From positions 67,138,659 to 67,202,658 of the forward strand of contig CM049313.1 in NCBI GenBank assembly GCA_026874595.1: a stretch of 64,000 nt of DNA, given 5' to 3'. Below, one piece after another: positions 3,961 through 62,190 of this stretch. Position numbers and translations under genes: made by a program. Origin of the DNA: Sipunculus nudus. Taxonomy: Eukaryota; Annelida; Sipuncula; Golfingiida; Sipunculidae. The notes beneath the pieces were generated by a model. That model saw only the letters and a program-made list of their open reading frames with translations. It made no database searches and was not told where the DNA came from. The number at the start of each line of letters is the position of its first letter. Within the stretch, counting starts at the first letter, position 1.

Positions 3961-4164
3961 TAATGTACCAAAAAGTGGGTCAATATGTCTTTGTTCCTTC
4001 ATGATATTAAGGACTAGGGATCCATGGGTCTCGACGCTGTATTTGTCTATAAGGATATATGTTTATGAGGTTTTCCCAATATTGGTCCTGTGATCAGTTT
4101 GAAGCCAACCTATCTACCCAAACTGGTGTTATCATCCATAAACTAATTTATGAATGGATGGGCC

Positions 4165-8945: not shown

Positions 8946-9286
8946 TTCCCCCCCCCCCCCCCCACTTTCCAGGTTCCATGCTCCATATGCAGTGGTAACG
9001 CTATGTTCAACTATTCGCTCCACTGTAACCGCTGCACGAAACCGCGGTTGTCCATCAGATTTGGCAACCAGGCAGTGCTGTCTCTGTGGAATTCCCTCCT
9101 GCGTTATATTTAAGCAAACCCGTTTGAATACAAACACTGTTTGCATATTCTCTTGCAGTGCCACATATCTTTGTTTATACGTTAAGCAAAACAGATTTTG
9201 TCTTACCAAGCGTCACTTTGCTGCGTGTATGGCAGCTTGCCAAACCTGAAGAATCCTACCATTTCTCACAGCTTGTGAGTATAAGG
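8946..9286. other. Unassigned, with a C tract
   Basis: Begins with a run of 16 C (8948-8963). Frames open on both strands across 8818-9249 overlap each other and carry no domain. Confidence 0.4.
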
Positions 9287-10046
9287 TGTTACAGGTATCT
9301 GTTTTATTGTGCACAGAAGTGTTATATGTGCCTGTGACATTCTGATTCGTGTTAGAGATGTTAGAGATGGCGTGTAGAGAAACAGCACTCGGTGTAATCC
9401 GTACTGGTTGAACCCTGGCGTTAAAACACAGCGTTCGTGCTAATCTGGAAATTTTCTGGGCTGTTTGTGCTCTATGAGCGCGTGTGTCTTGTTGTGTTCT
9501 TTGGGATATTCGAGATAGAAGTTTCTGGGCTTTGAGTGAAGAGTTAAAAATTGGAGATGTGTTTAGAACCGAATGGAGAAGAGAAAAAAATCCAGCGGAC
9601 ACGGAAGAGTGTAAATCAATTTTGGGACCTTACCGATAATTGCAATGGTGTCAGATATTTAACGGACTTAACACTGATTTAATATGGACCGTCTCCACTT
9701 GCCTTTGGATTATTACATTTTACGTGGATCGTTGGATTTAAACAACTCTTATTGAGCTGTGACAGTAGTGGTATCCGGATATCAAAGCCTAGGATCCGGA
9801 CACACTGGTACTATACATTTTATTTGTAATACTTTGTTATTGTTTTGATATAGTGTATTGTAATGTTAGAATTTTTTAAGAATCAATTAAAATTGTTTGT
9901 TATAAAAAAAACCCCACTGACTTCTTTATTCATTCCCCTAGGCATTTCACGCTGCCTACTGTTACAGATCTGATTTTTTCTTTATCTCCGTAAAAAAATT
10001 CATGCTCGTCACGCTACGTGATCTGTTGTTATTAGGTTCCGTAACA
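9287..10046 (+). mobile_element. Solo LTR, TGTTACA family, plus strand
   Basis: Starts TGTTACAGGTATCTG and ends TTAGGTTCCGTAACA, so the termini are TG and CA with the inverted repeat TGTTAC/GTAACA. It is 760 bp. The four bases before it (9283-9286, AAGG) equal the four after it (10047-10050), a plausible target duplication for a Ty3/Gypsy integrase. Near the 3' end it has the family block CTGACTTCTTTATTCATTCC then CATTTCACGCTGCCTACTG, also found in the copies at 17394, 23048 and 32702. There is no internal region, so LTR-LTR recombination probably removed it. The TATA box seen in other copies is altered here. Confidence 0.85.
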
Positions 10047-17043: not shown

Positions 17044-17223
17044 TTGCGAAAAGCAAGCTTTACTAGCGAGACAGTTCGGTCCGATTTAATGTCACCCCGT
17101 TACACACCCCCTCTTAAGAGCGTTCGGCTATCAGAACAAGACTAATTATCCAAGGAGTCACACTTTGGTGAGCTTATTCCCTGAGCCACAAAGTTAACCG
17201 TCACGTTAGACGAGCTCCCATTT

Positions 17224-17389
17224 TGTTACGAAGACAAATTAATGAGGGGAAAATCCTGGGCTGCTCCGGGAGTCGAACCCAGGTCGGTGGCGCACAAGTC
17301 CGGCGTACCAACCGCTTCGCTAGAAAAGAAAGCTTCACTTGCGAGACAGTTCGGTCCGCTTTTATGTCACCCCGTAACAGTATATCTAT
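17224..17389 (-). repeat. 5' LTR of the TRIM
   Basis: Terminal 7-base inverted repeat TGTTACG...CGTAACA is perfect. The neighbour TGTTACA-family LTR at 17394 starts only 5 bases further right on the other strand, so the two elements lie back to back. Confidence 0.75.
17269..17322 (-). promoter_or_regulatory. tRNA-like Pol III A and B boxes inside the TRIM LTR
   Basis: Minus strand TAGCGAAGCGG (17322-17312) fits the A-box consensus and GGTTCGACTCC (17279-17269) fits the B box, with tRNA-like spacing. Around the B box a T-arm can be drawn (CTGGG, seven-base loop, CCCGG), and the D stem GCG/CGC is present. A 5' acceptor strand matching AGCAGCC is missing, so this is not a working tRNA gene. It could be an internal Pol III promoter; activity is not shown by sequence. 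Confidence 0.65.
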
Positions 17390-17393
17390 ATGG

Positions 17394-18146
17394 TGTTACA
17401 GGTGTCTCTTTTATTGTGCGCTGTTGACATTCTGATTCGTGTTCGGCAGGCCCTGGTTTATTTATGCGCAGTATTGTTACATGTGTCTGTTAGGCCGGCA
17501 TAGTTCGTTGCCATGGGAGACGTGCGAGTTGGTCTGGCTCGCGTGTGGGGTTTTAAGTGTAGAAACACAGCGTTCTTTTTTCTAGATGTTTCAAGTCTGT
17601 TCCTGTAACATGTGTTGGTTCTTACGGAATTTTTTCATTATCTAGTATTTTAGGATGAAAAAGTTATAAATAGGGGCTGTGTTTAGAGCCAAGGGGGAAG
17701 AGAGAGAAAAATTCAAATGGACACGGAAGATTGTGAGTCAGTTTTGGGACCTTTCCGATAATTACAGAACTTGTAGATATTCTTCAAAATTTTTTACGGA
17801 TTTTATGTCTTCAGATTGCCTTTTGAATCATTGCCAGAACTTCACTTTTTGATTACAACAGATTGATTTCGAGATTACATTGGACTTTTATGTTTGAGAA
17901 GATTAACGTGAACTGTTCATCTGGATTATACATTTTAAAGGACTTGTTGAGCTGTGGCAGTGGTGGTATCCAAAAAAGGCTAGGATCCGGACACTCTGGT
18001 ACTGTACATTTTTATTGTTTTAATGTGTAATTGTATTGATTTAGTGTATTGTGATGTTAGGATTGTTTTAAGAATAAATTTTAATTATTTGTTAACAAAA
18101 AAAAAACCCACTGACTTCTTTATTCATTCCCCTAGACATTTCACGT
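17394..18146 (+). mobile_element. LTR of the TGTTACA family, plus strand, 3' end lost
   Basis: Starts TGTTACAGGTGTCTC. It contains TATAAATAG at 17665-17673, the blocks CACGGAAGA, GTGGTATCC and GATCCGGACACTCTGGTACT, an AATAAA near 18073, and CTGACTTCTTTATTCATTCC. It then breaks off after GACATTTCACG at about 18146, while complete copies go on for about 100 more bases. It faces the minus-strand gag-protease remnant to its right, so it is not that element's own 3' LTR in the normal arrangement; a rearrangement or separate insertion is needed. Confidence 0.8.
17665..17673 (+). promoter_or_regulatory. TATA box of the LTR promoter
   Basis: TATAAATAG, followed by GGGGCTGTGTTT. The same word stands in the copy at 32702-33551 (minus strand, 33266-33258), which argues for a conserved Pol II promoter in this LTR family. 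Confidence 0.55.
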
Positions 18147-18337: not shown

Positions 18338-18889
18338 TCAGTTCCCCATCTTTTTGGTCAGAGTGTTGTTATCTGGACCATTATCCTGATGTGTGTTTTT
18401 CTTGGCCATAGATCTAGTTACAGCACATGAAGAATACAAACCAGGAATTTCCTGAATTTTAGGATCAGTGTCCTGATCAAGTGACGGCTTTTCTGTCACA
18501 ATTGGTACAGGCTTTACTTTGCCACCTGCAACATCATTGCCCAGTAGCAAATAAATTCCCTTAAAGTGTAAAGTAGTTCTTATGCCCACAGTAATATTCC
18601 CAGAAATCAAATCTGACTTTCAATGGATACTGTGTAGCGGAACTGAAGTGTGCTTGTCTGAAAACACACCATTAACAAGATCATGTGAACCAGTAAAAGA
18701 CCTATTAGAAAATGGTAAAGTGTTTGCTAACATATGAGTCTGGCCTGAACCAGTGTCCCTCAAACTTCTAATAGGGGTAGAATCTGAAAAATCACTTGAA
18801 AGTGATACAAAACCATCATGTATGAATGGCTCAAATAACTCCATTTCAGAGTCAAGAGAGGAATCTACTCCCTCAGTTTCATCAAACAA
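18338..18889 (-). pseudogene. pro: Ty3/Gypsy aspartic protease remnant
   Basis: The reading frame from 18889 down contains IRSLRDTGSGQ, with the DTG catalytic triad of retropepsins at 18757-18749, then a flap-like region and GIYLLLGNDVAGGKV (about 18540-18490), a stretch characteristic of Gypsy polyproteins just after the protease, and AVTRSMAKK. One in-frame stop (TGA at 18622-18620) splits it. The protein would cut the Gag-Pol polyprotein. Reverse transcriptase, RNase H and integrase should follow on the minus strand but nothing recognisable remains before the plus-strand LTR at 17394-18146. The element is dead. Confidence 0.75.
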
Positions 18890-19301
18890 AGAACTTCTCT
18901 TCAGAGTCCTTAGAGGAATCTACGTCCTTTTTACAATCGAACTCCTCAGCAGAAACAAACTTCTGTTTGTCAAATGAAGACCAAGCCTCATTTGAAATAC
19001 TCTCGCAAGAGTCATAAAAGGACTAAGACTTACTCAGAGAATACTCCTCGCAGGAGTCTTGAAAGAACCTACCCTTATTAAATTCCTCGCAGGAATCAAC
19101 TGAGGTTTTTACCCCGCAAGCTACGGATTCTTCTTTGGATTGAGACGGCACGTTGGCCTCCGTATCATCAAATTCTTTTTAGAGTCAATAAAGGAGTTAT
19201 CCCCTTATTTACCTGTAAAGAGCCTGGCTCTTGCACTATGCTATGCATATATTTTGAAACAAAAAAGAAGGTTTGCTTTTTGGTTTATTCGCAAGTTCCC
19301 A

Positions 19302-19343
19302 GCAGTCAGATATTAGATGACCTTTCTTCTTGCAGTAAAAACA
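19302..19343 (-). other. CCHC zinc knuckle of the gag remnant
   Basis: CFYCKKKGHLISDC fits C-x2-C-x4-H-x4-C exactly, the nucleocapsid RNA-binding knuckle of Ty3/Gypsy and retroviral Gag. Confidence 0.85.
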
Positions 19344-19411
19344 GATTTTCTTCGCAAATGACTGGTCTATGTTGGACTTAGACACAGTGGACGTGGACTG
19401 AGGTGTAGCAA

Positions 19412-19508
19412 TGGACTTTGTTGAACTACTAGTACCGGGTGACTGCGCTTTAAACTTCTTTTGACCATACTGATTTACATTCTTGTTTGTGAATGACTGA
19501 TCTGATTT
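19412..19508. repeat. 97-bp target-site duplication, left copy
   Basis: Identical base for base to 21822-21918 as far as I can align by eye. It encodes part of the gag linker (QYGQKKFKAQSPGTSSS on the minus strand) and ends directly at the T run of the LINE tail. Confidence 0.9.
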
Positions 19509-21821
19509 TTTTTTTTTTTTTTCCTTTTTTATGCCTCAGAATATATCACCAGTAATTCATTTGTTCTGTTGTACTTTTCATCATTGGCATAACATATATT
19601 TATTGTAACTCATTATATGCTTGTCCGAGTTACATTAATTAAGAAGAATAAACAAAAAAAAAAACATGCACCAATACAATTAAGGAATAGTGTTCGACAG
19701 AAACTTAAAATTCTACCCTGATCATTTAACTCCCGGTTTCAACATGTTACGAACATATCCGTGCATATACATACTTTAACAAATTAATTATATACATACA
19801 CAAACCTATGACATACACCTGCATGTTTATTAACACAATATATTCCTAGGTTTTACACCTAGTACCTATTCACAAAATGCCATCACCAAATGAACAAACC
19901 ATAAATGAAAAGGGCATATCCAAATCGAACAAAACAAAGAATACATATGAAGTATGATATTACATGCACTTGCATATTGCACATTTCATTTCCTTATATT
20001 GTCCCTTCACCATATTTCTCTTCAATGTTTTGGACCAAACTGTGCCACGTTTCAAAATATTTCTTCTCTAAACCTTTATTCATGAGAATTATTTTTTTCA
20101 TTTTTAATTCAACCAAAATATATTTGATAAAACAATGAAATTTAACAGACAATTCTAGACATTTCTGTCTATGAATAAAGTATTTTGCGTGTATTATTAA
20201 ATAATTCAGTTGCTCAGTTCGTGCGTGGTCTTTGTCTTCGTAGTAGCCGAAGAAGATGTTATCAACTGTTATTGAGAAAGTACATTGTTTACTAAAGACT
20301 GTCCATAGATGACTAAATGATTTCCAGAATTCTTCCATAAATATACAGTTGAAGAACCTATGTTCTAATGATTCTTTCTCGGTCTTGCAGATGTTACACG
20401 TTGGCTTTTCAATCAGTTTTTGACAATAAAGCCTTTCATTATAAGGAATAATTCTATGCATAAATTTTAAATGGAAATCTTGTAGCTTAATACTGTCTAA
20501 AAAAATTCTGCCTCGACTGATAGCTTTGTTAAAGTCCTCCACTGTTATATGATAGTGTATTTGCCATGTTAAAAGAGATGTGGCCTCTTCATATTTTGAT
20601 TTTATGAAATGATTGTACAACAGTTTACTTTTCCATTTGCTCACATAATTTAGGCTGGTTGGTGTGTAATTGTTGGTATAATTATTATTATCACTATTTA
20701 GACTCTCATCTATACTAGAATGTAACGTAGTTCTCCATGTCTTTGGTATCGAGTGTACTACGGAGTAATATTCTATAAAGTTAGTTTTCATATTATATTT
20801 TAAACTCAGTTGCTCCATCGACAGTACATTTCCTTTGCTGTCGTAGATATCATCTATGAAACATATTCCCGCATTATACCAGTGCGAATAAAACAGTCTT
20901 GTTATTTGGTAGTGACACGTATGGATTATACCAAATCATTTCGGTTCGTACATCTCCCACGTTTGTCGGGGACATGTTTTGTTTGAATTGTTTCAATGAC
21001 TTTAGAATATCTTTATAGAACATTGGAAGTGCATCTGGCATGGTAAAATAGCATCTACTTCGCAAGATATCTCGGAATAACATGAATTTATTGTTGAAGT
21101 ACGAATCGATTAGCGATTCAAGAGTTGGTACTGAACCGCTGAGAGTACGTTTTAACCAGGTCAATTTCAAGGCTCGATTTTGTGTATCTAAATCTATATG
21201 TTTCATACCACCTTCGTTAAGTTTTTTAACCATCACACTGTATTTGATTTTCGGCGGTCGATCATTCCAAATAAAACAGTTGATTATTTTTTGAGCCTTT
21301 AAAATATAGTCATTGGGAATGTGAAACATGGACATGAGATACAAGAGTTGAGACACTCCCAAGGTTTTGACCAGAATTATTTTTCCATATAGCGTGAGTG
21401 ATCGTTTTTTCCAGGCACTGAGTAGTGTTTCCATTTTCCCTATCCGCTCCTCTATATTATATTTTATCGTCTCACACTCTGTCCTACAAAATGTAATTCC
21501 TAATGTCTTAAATTTTCCCGTGCACGATCTCACAGGTAAGTCTCCATCTTCTTTTCCTACTCTACAACCAACCCATCTCGCTTCTGTTTTGTCCATATTG
21601 GCTTTTAAACCTGAACAATGTTCAAATAAGTTTAAAGTATCTAATACTTATGCGGAGGATATATTTTCTACGAAGCACGTGGTGTCATCTGCTAACTGTG
21701 AGAGTTTTATTTCGACATTGCTCAATTTAATTCCTTTGATTTTCTTATTATTTCTGATATTTATTGCCAGTAATTCAACTGCTAGTATAAATAAAATGGG
21801 TGACAGGGGACATCCCTTTGT
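19509..21821 (-). mobile_element. 5'-truncated L1/Tx1-like LINE inserted in gag
   Basis: 2313 bp between the two 97-bp duplications. The 3' end is a T run on the plus strand (19506-19522), that is a poly-A tail on the minus strand. The 5' end (21821) falls inside the reverse transcriptase, at the GCPLSP motif, so the endonuclease and the front of the RT were never copied. This is the usual outcome of incomplete target-primed reverse transcription. The 3' untranslated part is about 470 bp (19523-19993). Confidence 0.9.
19994..21819 (-). pseudogene. LINE ORF2 C-terminal half: RT core to zinc-knuckle-like end
   Basis: From 21819 down: GCPLSPILFILAVELL, then SQLADDTTCFV with the ADD catalytic pair. 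One in-frame TAA stop follows just after NISSA, and then FEHCSGLKANMDKTEARWVG (RT thumb side), YGKIILVKTLGVSQLLYLMS and FIWNDRPPKIKY. A one-base frameshift follows near 20870; after it the frame gives WYNAGICFIDDIYDSKGNVL, and the C-terminal CNICKTEKESLEHRFFNC (about 20395-20340), a C-x2-C-x7-H-x4-C arrangement typical of L1/Tx1-type LINEs. The protein would reverse-transcribe its RNA at the nicked target. With only one stop and one frameshift in ~600 codons, decay is modest compared with the gag around it. Confidence 0.8.
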
Positions 21822-23047: not shown

Positions 23048-23890
23048 TTTAACGGAACCTAATATCAACAGATCACATATGCGTGATGAACATAAACTTC
23101 GTCATGGAGATAAAAAACAATCAGATTCTGTAACACTAAGCAGAGTGAAATGTCTAGGGGAATGGATAAAGAAGTCAGTGTTTTTTTTTGTTTGTTTACA
23201 AATAACTAAAATTTATTCTTAAAACAACCTTAACATTGCAATACACTAAATTAAGTCAATTACACTGTACAACAACAGTATAACAGCAAATCAATATAAT
23301 CACACAGCCTAATAAACAAAGTGCACAGTACCTGGATACTACCACTATCACAGCTACAAGTTCTTTAAAATGTATAAGCCGGATGAATAGAAAAGAATAA
23401 CAGTCCAAAGTAATATTCTTGCAACAATCCCGAAAAAAAACTGAAGACCAAAAAATTTTCATCACAAATCCAGAAGAAAATCTATAATTGCCGCACTTAT
23501 CGGAATAGGTCCCACAAAATGACTTACACGCTTCTGTGTATATATATCTGCAATATTCTCTCACCTCTCTGCCGGCTTTAAAACACAGCCTCTTTATATA
23601 ACTTTTCACCTCAAGCCGAGAACTTTCCATTTCTCAAACAATCTAAAGAACCTAACATAATAAACACACTCAAAGAACAAACTAGAACAAAGAACGCTGT
23701 GTATCTACACGCAAAGGTTCAACATATGCGGATTAAACCGAGCCTGCAACAACCGGCCAGGTAAGGCCGCTACAACACGAGCTACGCGTGGCACACGAAC
23801 CAAATGTCAATAACGCATGGAGCACCCCTGAGCACAATAAAAGAAACACATTCAAGACCGCTGCTCACAATAAAAAGGGCACCTGTAACA
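23048..23890 (-). mobile_element. 5' LTR of the Gypsy remnant, minus strand
   Basis: Starts TGTTACAGGTGCCC at 23890 and ends with TTAGGTTCCGTTAAA near 23048, where complete copies have TTCCGTAACA or TTCCGTGACA. About 843 bp. Closely resembles 32702-33551 along its whole length. Its position just upstream of gag makes it the element's own 5' LTR. Confidence 0.85.
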
Positions 23891-32701: not shown

Positions 32702-33551
32702 TGTCACGGAACCTAATATCATAGGATCACGTATGCGTGATGAATAAAATTCCGAATAAAGATAAAAAAATCAGATTCTGTAACACTAGGCAGCGTGAAA
32801 TGTCTAGGGGAATGAATAAATAAGTCAGTGTTTTTTGTTAACAAATAACTATAATTTATTCTTAAAACAACCCTAACATTACAATACACTAAATCAATAC
32901 AATTACACAGTACAACAACAGTATAACACCAAATCAATATAATCACACAGCCTTATAAACAAAGTGCACAGTACCTGGATACCACCACTGTCACAGCGAA
33001 AAGTTCTTTAAAATGTATAAGCCGGACGAACAGTTCACACAAATTCTCTCGGAGAATAACAGTCCAATGTAAAGCACTTGTAACAGTCCCGAAAGTAAAC
33101 TGATGACCAAATAAGATTCGTCACAAATCCAAAAGAAAATCTGAAGAAAATCTATATTTGCTGCAATTGTCGGAATAGGTCCCACAAACTGACATACACG
33201 TTTCTGTGTCCGCTGGAATATTCTCTCACCTCTCTCTCGGCTCCAAAACACAGCCCCCTATTTATAACTTCTCGTCTCAAGCCGAGAATTTACCATTTCT
33301 CGAACAATCTAAAGCATCTAACACAGTAAACACGTACAAAGAACATACTAGAACAAAGATCGCTGTGTATCTAGGGTTCAACCGATGCGGATAAAATCGA
33401 GCCTGCAACATCCGGCCAGGCGAGGCCGCTATAACATGTGCTACGCGTGGCACACGAACCAAATGTCAACAACGCATGGAGCACCCCTACGCACAACAAA
33501 AGTAACACATGCAAGACCGCTGCACACAATAAAAAGGGCACCTGTAACATT
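32702..33551 (-). mobile_element. Solo LTR, TGTTACA family, minus strand
   Basis: Starts TGTTACAGGTGCCC at 33551 and ends TTAGGTTCCGTGACA at 32702, 850 bp. It has the TATA word TATAAATAG on the minus strand (33266-33258). It matches the 5' LTR at 23048-23890 nearly throughout, including TGTTACA-like sequence near 32785 that might be mistaken for the LTR end. The flanking four bases GTGT and TTGT are similar but not identical, so a target duplication is not proven. No internal region on either side. Confidence 0.8.
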
Positions 33552-40962: not shown

Positions 40963-41300
40963 CTTCTGTGTCCGCTGGAATATTCTCGCACCTCTCTCCC
41001 GGCTCTAAAACACAGCCCCCTATTAATAACTTCTCACCCTAAGCCGAGAACTTTCCACTTCCCGAACAATCCGAAAAATCTAACATAATACACAGTATAC
41101 ACGCGTTACAGGAAACATCTAGAACAAGAACGCTGTGTTTGTACATGTCTGGGTTCACACGCGAGAAAGCCCCAGACTAGCATGACCGCTATGTACACGT
41201 CAGACCTCACGCGTGTGCCGGGCTATGCCGTCATTGCAACAGACAACGCTAGCGCTGAGCAAACACACTGCTGCATACAATAAAAGAGACATCTATAACA
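40963..41300 (-). mobile_element. LTR fragment, TGTTACA family
   Basis: Minus strand from 41300 (TGTTATAGATGTCTC, so the first LTR bases have mutated from TGTTACA) to about 40963, where similarity to other copies stops at TCTGTGTCCGCTGGAATATT. It is closer to the copy at 1-335 than to the 32702 copy, sharing CCCCAGACTAGCATGACCGC. Confidence 0.75.
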
Positions 41301-44300
41301 ATTTATTTATATATTTATGTGAAACGGTATGTCAATACAGGCTTGTCAATTGCCGTTTTAACAATGCCGTATTCAATGTATACGGTATTGGATAAAATTC
41401 TTATCGTGTTCTTACTGTACCAGAAAAGCTTATTCAGTAGAGTATTGTAAAAGGTATTCTAGTCAGTTCATACGGGATCAATGGAAATTATATCGAAACT
41501 ATAGTTCCTGCTAGGGCAATAGGTTGGAACGCGAAAGAATACTCATGCAGTGAACAGAAAGTGAATTTGCCTTGAATAAAAAAGTTGTCCGTTATCGGTA
41601 TCGTTATTAGTGAATACCAGTCAACTATGAAAACGAGATAAGTTCCGCCCCGATTGTTTAATTAAGAATGTTATAAATTTATCCCATCTGACGTCGTGGT
41701 CACATATAAGATTGTAATTCATTTAAACTTAACTTTTAGTCCCATCAGTTATGTTTATTACGCTATTACTACCTAATAAATCAATAAAAAGTAACTTTTT
41801 AATTAACTCGTTGTGGGAGCATCGATGGGCTGCTTGATGGTCTATTATATATTTTGTAAGACTAATTTGTTATAACTGACTCATGTAATTAAACTGTCAG
41901 ACGGGAAAAAATAAGCAAATACATACAAGATGCACCTTTTTTAAATATTTTATCAACATGTCGCTGTTTTACTTCGATTAACGAAGAAGATGCACGCTTG
42001 GCTATAATGAGTAATACATTTAGTAGCTCTCGCCTCTTGGGATTTATAATTGAGTTTACGGTATGAAAAATACCAACATGTTACTGTATGTGTCTACTTA
42101 TTTTATTCCCTTAGCCTTTCCACCAATTATTAACAAAATACGTAATTATGTTTTTTTTTATAAAAAATGTGATTTTTTTTCAAATTAAATCCGTGATTTT
42201 TTAAATATTCTTTTTTACATTTTGAGAAGTTTCATCATCTGACTTGTTTACGAGCAATATGCGGCTGCACGGCTTGTATAATTTCCATAATCTCGTGTTA
42301 TTGTTATATTTAAACGTGAAAACAAATTATATAGAGTTGTTTATACCGGATTCTAGTCTTAACGACATAAACGTTAATAACAACATTGGATGCTGCTAAT
42401 CTACATCCAATATATAACAGAATCACCGGGAAATGCTTTCAGTAGCATCCTTGGCTAACACATCTCAATTTACAATCCACCCAAAAGCCTTTCTTAGATT
42501 CAATGAAGTATATATAAGCTATGCAGAGCTCTTTCTAATGGAATATGTTTCAAAGAAATTCATTTTCATGTGAAATTATTTAAAAATTTTTGAGAATTTA
42601 TAATTTTTTAATAGTGCACAATAGAAGCAACCAGTAACAGCAAACAACTTTTTAATGTTAACATCAAACCACATGACATTACCTAAAAGCCAGTTTTTTT
42701 TTAGTTTTTTTTTATTCAATTAAACATTTTAAATCTCATTTTCAAACATAAAAGATATATGGTAGATGTTAACGAAAAAAAAACATTTCTTTCTTTTTAA
42801 ACGTCATACGATCTGTCGAATACATTGACTTATATTTAGTCAATTTATATATTGCCTGTAATTTTTTTGTCATTCTATTTTCAAACTGCCATGCATGCAT
42901 TTAGTAAATTGACCAAAATTTCAGACAATTACCTTCGTGATTGAACACATTGACTGCAGTATATACAAGCAATAACGTATTATATAGTATAAGTAGGTAA
43001 TGGACCTGTGGTAGCCTATCAGCTCGTAGTCTAATATATCTTTAAAATAGGGATGTGCGATATCGATATATGATTATATCGCGATATGGTGATCCATGTA
43101 TTGCGTGTCTCGATATGGTTTTTATATATCCTTATTTTTTCGATTTTTTTTTCAAACCTGATTGAAACTGATATAGTGTATTAAAAATAAGTTTCTGTTC
43201 AAATTGTGACATCTATGTGGTTGAGATTGTAAATGGCTGAAAGTGAAAGCCGCTGCCGTGTCTAAAGGCACACCTCGGGCCAAATATTAGGAACTCTTAA
43301 AGTAGGCTTGATGAAACATTTGATAAAAAGTCCATCACAGGGATTCTGAATTTCTACTCGATGACTAATTGGTACCTAAAAAGAAGAAGGTTCCACAGAA
43401 AAAAAATTCCCAACATTGTCGAAATAACTATTTATTATTAATTAATAATCCGCCTTTTCATCCTGTAAATTGCAGTAAGACCAGTGCCAACTGATCAATT
43501 TTACTGCTGAAGAACAACAGCCTTGCATTGTGGTACATGACTGTGTTTTCCCTCTCAATGCGAAACTGCAGTACAGAAGCTCTTGTTGCCAAGTTATTTG
43601 CATATATTAAAAATTATTTTAAATGTTTCTTCGACTTCTGAAAATTTACTGTCCTGAGTAATATTGATACAATAAGTTTCTTAAGCTTTTTATAATGAAA
43701 TATATTCAATTACACTCCATCTCGTACAAGGTTATTAGAATCAAGATTCGACATATGGTAGTTATATTCAAAGCAAAGCGCAAATGTTAGTCTGCTAAAA
43801 ACGACCCGTTTTTTGTTAATATTCCCACATAATAAAAATCTGTTAAAATATAAGTTAAATAAAACAAAGAATACGCACATTATTCTGGCATACTTTATTA
43901 AATCGCCTAATGTCTCTGTACTCAGAAATCAACAGAACTATTGACTGCTAATTAATTAATTATTTAATTAGTTAAGATCAATTGAGGGTGCATTTAATAT
44001 TCAATTAAACAGATTTTTTTTATCCAAATCAAATTGACCTTAACCTGAACATTTAAGCTGACCTTTTAAAACATATATACACATGGAAAGTCATTATTTG
44101 TTGGGAGAATGTTTGAAACCGCAACAATCATTCCCTGCGACGAGGCAATAATACAAATTGATTGGAGCAGAGACAGGATTTCAGAAAAGGTAGACCTGCA
44201 CATCAAGAGAAATTAGTGATGGCATGGGGGCAACTCCCCTCTCATGGTGTAGGAATAATTTGCGAATTTAATCTGTAATGCTGTTGAGTGGTTTGATTTC

Positions 44301-61884: not shown

Positions 61885-62190
61885 GGAGCGTGGGGGTGAC
61901 GTGTAACGGTTAGTGCGCTGGACTTGTGGCTGCAAGGTTGTGGGTCCGCATCCCGACATGACCGGCTTTCGCGCTAAGATTCCTGGCCATAGTCTTTACC
62001 ACAAGGATGAACTCTCTCAACCCAGGAGTGAAGGGGTACTGGCCGTGTGCAGTAAACCAATGTAGAATGAAAAGCTATCCAGCCCTTATAAGGCCGCTAG
62101 GGTTGAATGCTCCCCCTGGAGCCGAGAAAAGCTACAAGAATGAACAAGCCAGGTAGACCATTGCATGATGGCAAAGTGTAAAAGTAGGAC
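61885..62190 (+). repeat. Second tRNA-headed SINE family
   Basis: TGACGTGTAACGGTTAGTGC (A-box region), CTGGACTTGTGGCTGCAAGG, GGTTGTGGGTCCGCATCCC (B box, one base off consensus), then a non-tRNA body to about 62190 including AACTCTCTCAACCCAGG and ATGCTCCCCCTGGAGCC. The head differs from the family at 35797. No poly-A tail or target duplication was found. Confidence 0.65.

Follow-up and report, generated by a model that had tools for sequence, protein, structure and literature searches.

Helenus elements (TRIMp3) are TRIMs with tRNA-like LTRs, and they have been described in fungi, animals and one plant (Kojima 2024, PMC10886601). In animals, they are characterised by 4-bp duplications, Gypsy-like primer sites and mobilisation by Gypsy elements, and 51 families, with tRNA-Pro among their primers, have been reported from pteriomorph bivalves (PMC10886601). 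Box A has the form TRGCY...YGG and box B contains GGTTC in most families (PMC10886601). Transcription of Helenus by Pol III is expected, although it was left unproven in the original paper, and such elements are proposed to originate from the insertion of SINEs into LTRs (PMC10886601). Tandem arrays are known for one zebrafish family, LTR-11_DR (PMC10886601).

We analyzed a 64-kb stretch of DNA (the window) that contains, on its minus strand, a short element of this kind. It is very probably a truncated copy of a dispersed, non-autonomous and non-coding Helenus-type TRIM, whose LTR has absorbed a tRNA-type head and for which a Pol III route is predicted. Its assignment to the Helenus-type class, taken on its own, is close to certain. 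Like the published elements, it is a mini LTR element with no coding region, its LTR is tRNA-like and carries A and B boxes, and it has a primer site that can pair with the 3′ end of a tRNA, a purine tract and 4-bp duplications. It also shares with them the general lack of a functional tRNA, a size within the published range of 311–1263 bp, and the occurrence of tandem arrays. There are two differences. The A box reads TAGCG...CGG, with G as the fifth base where most Helenus families have the Y of TRGCY, and this counts against our reading; in addition, the genome studied here also contains a SINE whose head is similar. By structure, as compared with the published descriptions, the element belongs to a Helenus-type family and does not represent a new kind of element. 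A tRNA-type counterpart of the plant Cassandra elements in an animal, which the original prediction had offered as a parallel case, was already published in 2024 as Helenus (PMC10886601). Our search, which covered few subscription journals and no bioRxiv preprints, found no later literature on Helenus/TRIMp3.

Three other groups invite comparison. Cassandra is likewise a very short LTR element whose LTR holds a promoter of the Pol III type, and it too occurs in tandem arrays; the short repeat at the ends of its RNA measures 18 bp (PMC10886601). Cassandra is found in plants, has a 5S rRNA promoter and has reported Pol III transcripts, whereas the element described here has tRNA-type boxes and is known from sequence; Rfam scans of the element locus gave no match to 5S rRNA. 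The biv-TRIM elements of bivalves (Satovic 2019, PMC6934838) resemble our element in being animal TRIMs with tandem arrays and solo terminal repeats. In the sections of that description considered here, however, the terminal repeats are 202–218 bp and the interior is 77–80 bp (156 bp and 119 bp in our element), the PPT is mostly GGGGAGA (here AAGAGGGGG), and no unambiguous primer site is given, in contrast to the clear tRNA-Pro-type site found here (PMC6934838). Finally, tRNA-derived SINEs (SINE2) share the tRNA-type head with A and B boxes but are without LTRs, primer site and purine tract and integrate in the LINE manner (PMC10886601), whereas our element has two LTRs and 4-bp duplications.

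The original prediction named no strand. The functional strand is the minus strand, where the two boxes, the primer site and the purine tract are each found in 5′ to 3′ orientation. Coordinates of all features are given in the table. The primer site is presumably that of tRNA-Pro, an assignment that we made from the textbook site and that is consistent with the list of Helenus primers (Kojima 2024, PMC10886601). The match to the second LTR runs from 17104 down to 17048, where it ends with 57 of 156 bp present, while the complete plan seen in relatives spans 431 bp (LTR156-interior119-LTR156). The features first reported for the locus (an LTR, a primer-like site, a purine tract and the start of a second LTR, together making up a TRIM) are all found in its anatomy and again among the related loci described below. 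Two of the dimensions needed revision. The LTR does begin its range at 17224, but it ends at 17379 (156 bp) and not at 17389 (166 bp); and the full plan exceeds the proposed size of about 350 bp, the truncated window copy keeping 332 bp of it.

Features of the element in the window (positions are those of the 64-kb stretch)
Feature	Position	Strand	Remark
Helenus-type TRIM copy, 3′ LTR incomplete; 332 bp of the 431-bp plan	17048..17379	-	
Complete 5′ LTR, 156 bp, TGTTACG...CGTAACA	17224..17379	-	Most other copies begin with TGTTAC and finish with GTAACA
Interior, 119 bp, non-coding	17105..17223	-	
3′ LTR, first 57 bp only, remainder lost	17048..17104	-	89% identity with matching part of 5′ LTR
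Primer-binding site, tRNA-Pro type, begins 3 nt into interior	17203..17220	-	
Polypurine tract, immediately before 3′ LTR	17105..17115	-	
A box TAGCGAAGCGG, LTR position 58	17312..17322	-	Motif scan
B box GGTTCGACTCC, LTR position 101	17269..17279	-	Motif scan
TATA-like CATAAAAG, LTR positions 14–21	17359..17366	-	Intact in 74/82 LTRs; putative role
TTTT directly upstream of A box; in the 3′ LTR, a candidate site for Pol III to end	17324..17327	-	Putative role
TTTT 3′ of B box, possible premature Pol III terminator	17250..17253	-	Putative role

Several other repeats lie in the window. A repeat of several hundred bp (17387–18145) adjoins the element and is possibly another LTR family; partial relatives of it lie at 1–336, 9280–9951, 23052–23890, 32706–33549 and 40964–41313. 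Five neighboring frames were compared with Pfam. Next to the element, at 18338–19535 on the minus strand, lie broken reading frames that probably belong to a decayed LTR retrotransposon, and one of them contains a CCHC zinc knuckle slightly below the Pfam cut-off. An open frame at 19994–20935, also on the minus strand, has a zf-RVT domain and is probably the remnant of a non-LTR retrotransposon; the frame overlapping it (20874–21647) gave no Pfam match.

To place the window copy within its family, we searched the host genome (1.43 Gb, 153 contigs) with the first 39 bases of the LTR and with a 42-base stretch of the tRNA-like core. At ≤3 mismatches, the LTR start was found at 4,032 places and the core at 2,180, while reversed-letter controls for the two gave 0 matches. 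Core places are half as numerous as LTR starts, indicating that many LTRs have a diverged or damaged middle. We studied 40 loci, namely the window copy and 39 others fetched with their flanks. They are the best 40 of 2,714 candidates by likeness to the window copy, a non-random sample, and because of this choice the divergence between copies (mean 0.099) is underestimated.

The 431-bp plan recurs among the 40 loci, with minor length changes and some damaged ends. As anticipated, full two-LTR copies with target duplications are present in the source genome: both outer LTR ends are kept at 32 loci, and 23 of these have an exact 4-bp duplication, with three of the four bases agreeing at another 6 and two or fewer at the remaining 3. 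When left and right flanks were taken from different loci, 63 of 992 such crossed pairings matched exactly (6%). At 20 loci, the four bases on the left include at least one G or C, and 13 of these loci match. The 12-mer of the tRNA-Pro-type primer site is exact in 37, and has ≤1 mismatch in 47, of the 50 interiors that reach the primer site. Of the 50 interiors that reach the 3′ LTR, 38 have an exact purine tract. For the 23 loci with exactly two full LTRs, the LTR–LTR distance averages 0.080 (range 0.006–0.179; K2P mean 0.087). These distances are given without a clock, and they indicate that most of the 23 copies are not recent.

Some insertions have unusual surroundings. Several copies (L018, L026, L037, L046 and others) lie at or within (AT)n runs, a hint of integration preference or bias. 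At L035, L042 and L011, inverted LTR pieces are found directly beside or near the copies, reflecting rearranged or nested insertions.

The A and B boxes of the LTR are 43 bp apart, which agrees with the tRNA spacing originally predicted. With ≤1 mismatch allowed in each box, the 64-kb window contains no other pair at this distance, and 20 dinucleotide shuffles of the window yielded one pair in total. We aligned the 82 near-full-length LTRs among 94 LTR pieces, leaving out 12 incomplete ones. With the A box scored in its 11-base form, ≤1 mismatch was seen for the A box in 79 of the 82, for the B box in 72 and for both in 69, which rules out the idea that the boxes are missing from other copies. 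Each motif occurs at one offset only across the alignment, and the GGTTC of the B box is present in 70 LTRs. The T-arm can be drawn, as had been claimed, with 5/5 pairs formed in the window copy; the same holds for 50 of the 82 LTRs. A functional tRNA, on the other hand, is unsupported. ARAGORN found no full tRNA in the window or in the 39 loci (L009–L047), and Rfam scans of the element locus gave no match to the tRNA family, the matches to tRNA-like models (mascRNA and the T-arm part of tmRNA) being weak and below threshold. Folding of the tRNA-like stretch from three copies was slightly worse than for shuffles (z 0.7, 0.8 and 1.5).

A sample chosen independently of the boxes gave a different picture. 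We took six LTR starts on contig C1, these being the first plus-strand exact matches to the LTR start. Both boxes have ≤1 mismatch in two of the six; the tRNA-like part is absent from one (L078) and diverged in five. If these six are typical, the wider family is mostly decayed in its boxes. Within the alignment of 82, the majority base at non-CpG positions has a frequency of 0.956 in the boxes, 0.925 in the rest of the tRNA-like part, 0.977 in the LTR 5′ part and 0.914 in the 3′ part. Conservation of the boxes is thus below that of the LTR 5′ part, and no selection on the boxes was seen within the family.

Where might the tRNA-like part have come from? We surveyed 252 kb (the 39 loci, the window and three tRNA loci) for A/B pairs. 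Outside the element family and tRNA genes, the sole pair belongs to a SINE-like repeat (L039:1245–1430), a relative of which lies in the window at 61903–62071 (75% over 169 bp). The head of this SINE and the tRNA-like part of the LTR are alike at 42 of 62 aligned bases, with a z of 7.7 versus shuffles. In the same comparison, z was 2.9 for host tRNA-Lys, 2.9 for host tRNA-Met and 4.6 for a bacterial tRNA-Thr, and when a longer slice was compared with 18 distinct tRNA sequences, the top six had z values of 3.9–4.6. By this measure, the tRNA-like part of the LTR appears closer to the SINE head than to the few tRNAs compared. No likeness was seen by eye beyond the SINE head into the SINE body. 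One caveat here is that the tRNA set is small and that the SINE was itself found by its A/B boxes, which favors the SINE somewhat; hence SINE capture is supported, not proven. We consider it fairly likely that the tRNA-type head of the LTR derives from a SINE.

That one genome contains both the LTR and a SINE with a comparable head adds some weight to the SINE-into-LTR proposal of Kojima. It also prompts a more tentative idea, which we think less likely than not: the promoter might come from the head of a SINE lineage that persists in the same genome, such that LINE- and LTR-dependent parasites would have a common Pol III promoter module, in a host that may sit outside the bivalve group of the published molluscan Helenus families. 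If the host is outside Pteriomorphia, the known range of molluscan Helenus would widen. A molluscan haemocyanin domain was looked for in the host genome and not detected, a result of little weight, given that the controls gave no match either.

Among the host tRNA loci inspected, one contig (C9:40605435–40699894) holds a long tandem array of tRNA-Lys genes, many of them ∼1.67 kb apart, with tRNA-Met genes interspersed.

How is the RNA that transposes made? On the reading that we favor, an LTR would have acquired a tRNA-type head, most likely from a SINE. TFIIIC and TFIIIB would bind the A and B boxes of the 5′ LTR, and Pol III would initiate near LTR position 45, with the A box ∼13 bp further downstream. 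The transcript would run through the interior into the 3′ LTR and terminate at the TTTT that directly precedes the second A box, so that both RNA ends would have a short repeat in common, comparable to that of Cassandra. A Gypsy-type element would provide reverse transcriptase and integrase, tRNA-Pro would prime reverse transcription, and the copy would integrate with a 4-bp duplication. Mobilisation by a Gypsy-type element is the firmer part of this scheme, and we hold it to be probable. That Pol III is the source of the transposing RNA is a prediction from the promoter motifs, toward which we lean only slightly.

The main alternative is a conventional TRIM in which Pol II would use the TATA-like box for transcription and the tRNA-like part would be a passenger left by an old SINE insertion. 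This is a serious contender, though we rate it below the Pol III route. The TATA-like box, which could serve Pol II, is CATAAAAG in its intact form, and it stands in the part of the LTR that is best conserved, whereas the boxes are less conserved than that part and are decayed in four of the six LTRs picked by their start alone. The placement of TTTT also counts against Pol III. In most LTRs a TTTT follows the B box by ∼15 nt (75 of 82 have TTTT past LTR position 105), and it could stop Pol III before the primer site is reached; at the proposed end point, TTTT falls within the first 60 LTR bases in only 54 of 82. On the other side, AATAAA and ATTAAA are absent from all 82 LTRs. The constant spacing of the A and B boxes, kept in most of the 82, argues for Pol III, as does the rarity of LTRs whose middle is shortened. 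The starts predicted for Pol II and for Pol III nearly coincide (LTR ∼40–48), so anatomy alone does not decide the matter. With a family this abundant, the question still open for Helenus, namely whether the tRNA-type promoter makes the transposing RNA, becomes approachable.

The remaining alternatives fare much worse. Tandem arrays of the form LTR(n)-interior(n-1), with three to five LTRs and a period of ∼275 bp, make up 9 of the 40 loci, as might be expected of a tandem satellite that is not mobile at all. Yet the other 31 loci are single or partial copies, and six of the nine arrays have one exact 4-bp duplication at their flanks. Two of these six lie in (AT)n runs, where a match is uninformative, and the 40 loci are not a random sample; nevertheless, we regard a satellite as very improbable, and the arrays look secondary, or inserted as multimers. 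Still less probable is the mere insertion of a SINE into a single larger LTR at this place, even though the tRNA-like part resembles a SINE head of the same genome. In complete copies, the same 156-bp LTR with its tRNA-like part flanks the interior on both sides, and this arrangement recurs genome-wide; no SINE body or tail was seen within the LTR. A gapped pattern that allowed zero mismatches in the flanking words, with middle sizes of 59–84 outside the query, found 787 exactly flanked LTRs with a full-size middle (85–115) and 7 with a shortened one (28–58). The four short-middle LTRs that could be read are broken at different points, which suggests independent deletions and not a founder that lacked the tRNA-like part. 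For the family, then, a 166-bp SINE within a larger LTR, the arrangement against which the original prediction had asked to be checked, is excluded by the two-LTR copies and by these numbers, while a SINE insertion in an LTR is possible as the founding event. Least probable of all is that the motifs came together by chance in unrelated sequence. The window has a single full LTR and the A/B motif is a short one, but the shuffles, the thousands of genomic matches and the zero matches of the controls rule this out.

We also looked for an autonomous partner. RT_RNaseH_2 genes are abundant in the host genome. Among the 40 primer-site places listed, however, the nearest RNase H match is 85 kb away (150 of 6,977 candidates listed), and at this distance no partner is tied to the element, a point against the favored reading. 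At one locus (L079, contig C1:9442197), a related LTR whose end has diverged precedes a primer site of the tRNA-Pro type, while the interior differs from that of the element; this locus is a possible link to an autonomous partner. When its LTR end and interior were used as a query, the best 40 of 216 candidates comprised L079 itself and 39 others that match just 36–52 nt around the primer site.

One further observation concerns the assembly. Contigs C115 and C121 (L048–L052) look bacterial, with tRNA genes that encode CCA and long frames, and are probably from a symbiont or a contaminant. Two of these frames resemble, by eye, what we take to be NADH dehydrogenase and ClpB.
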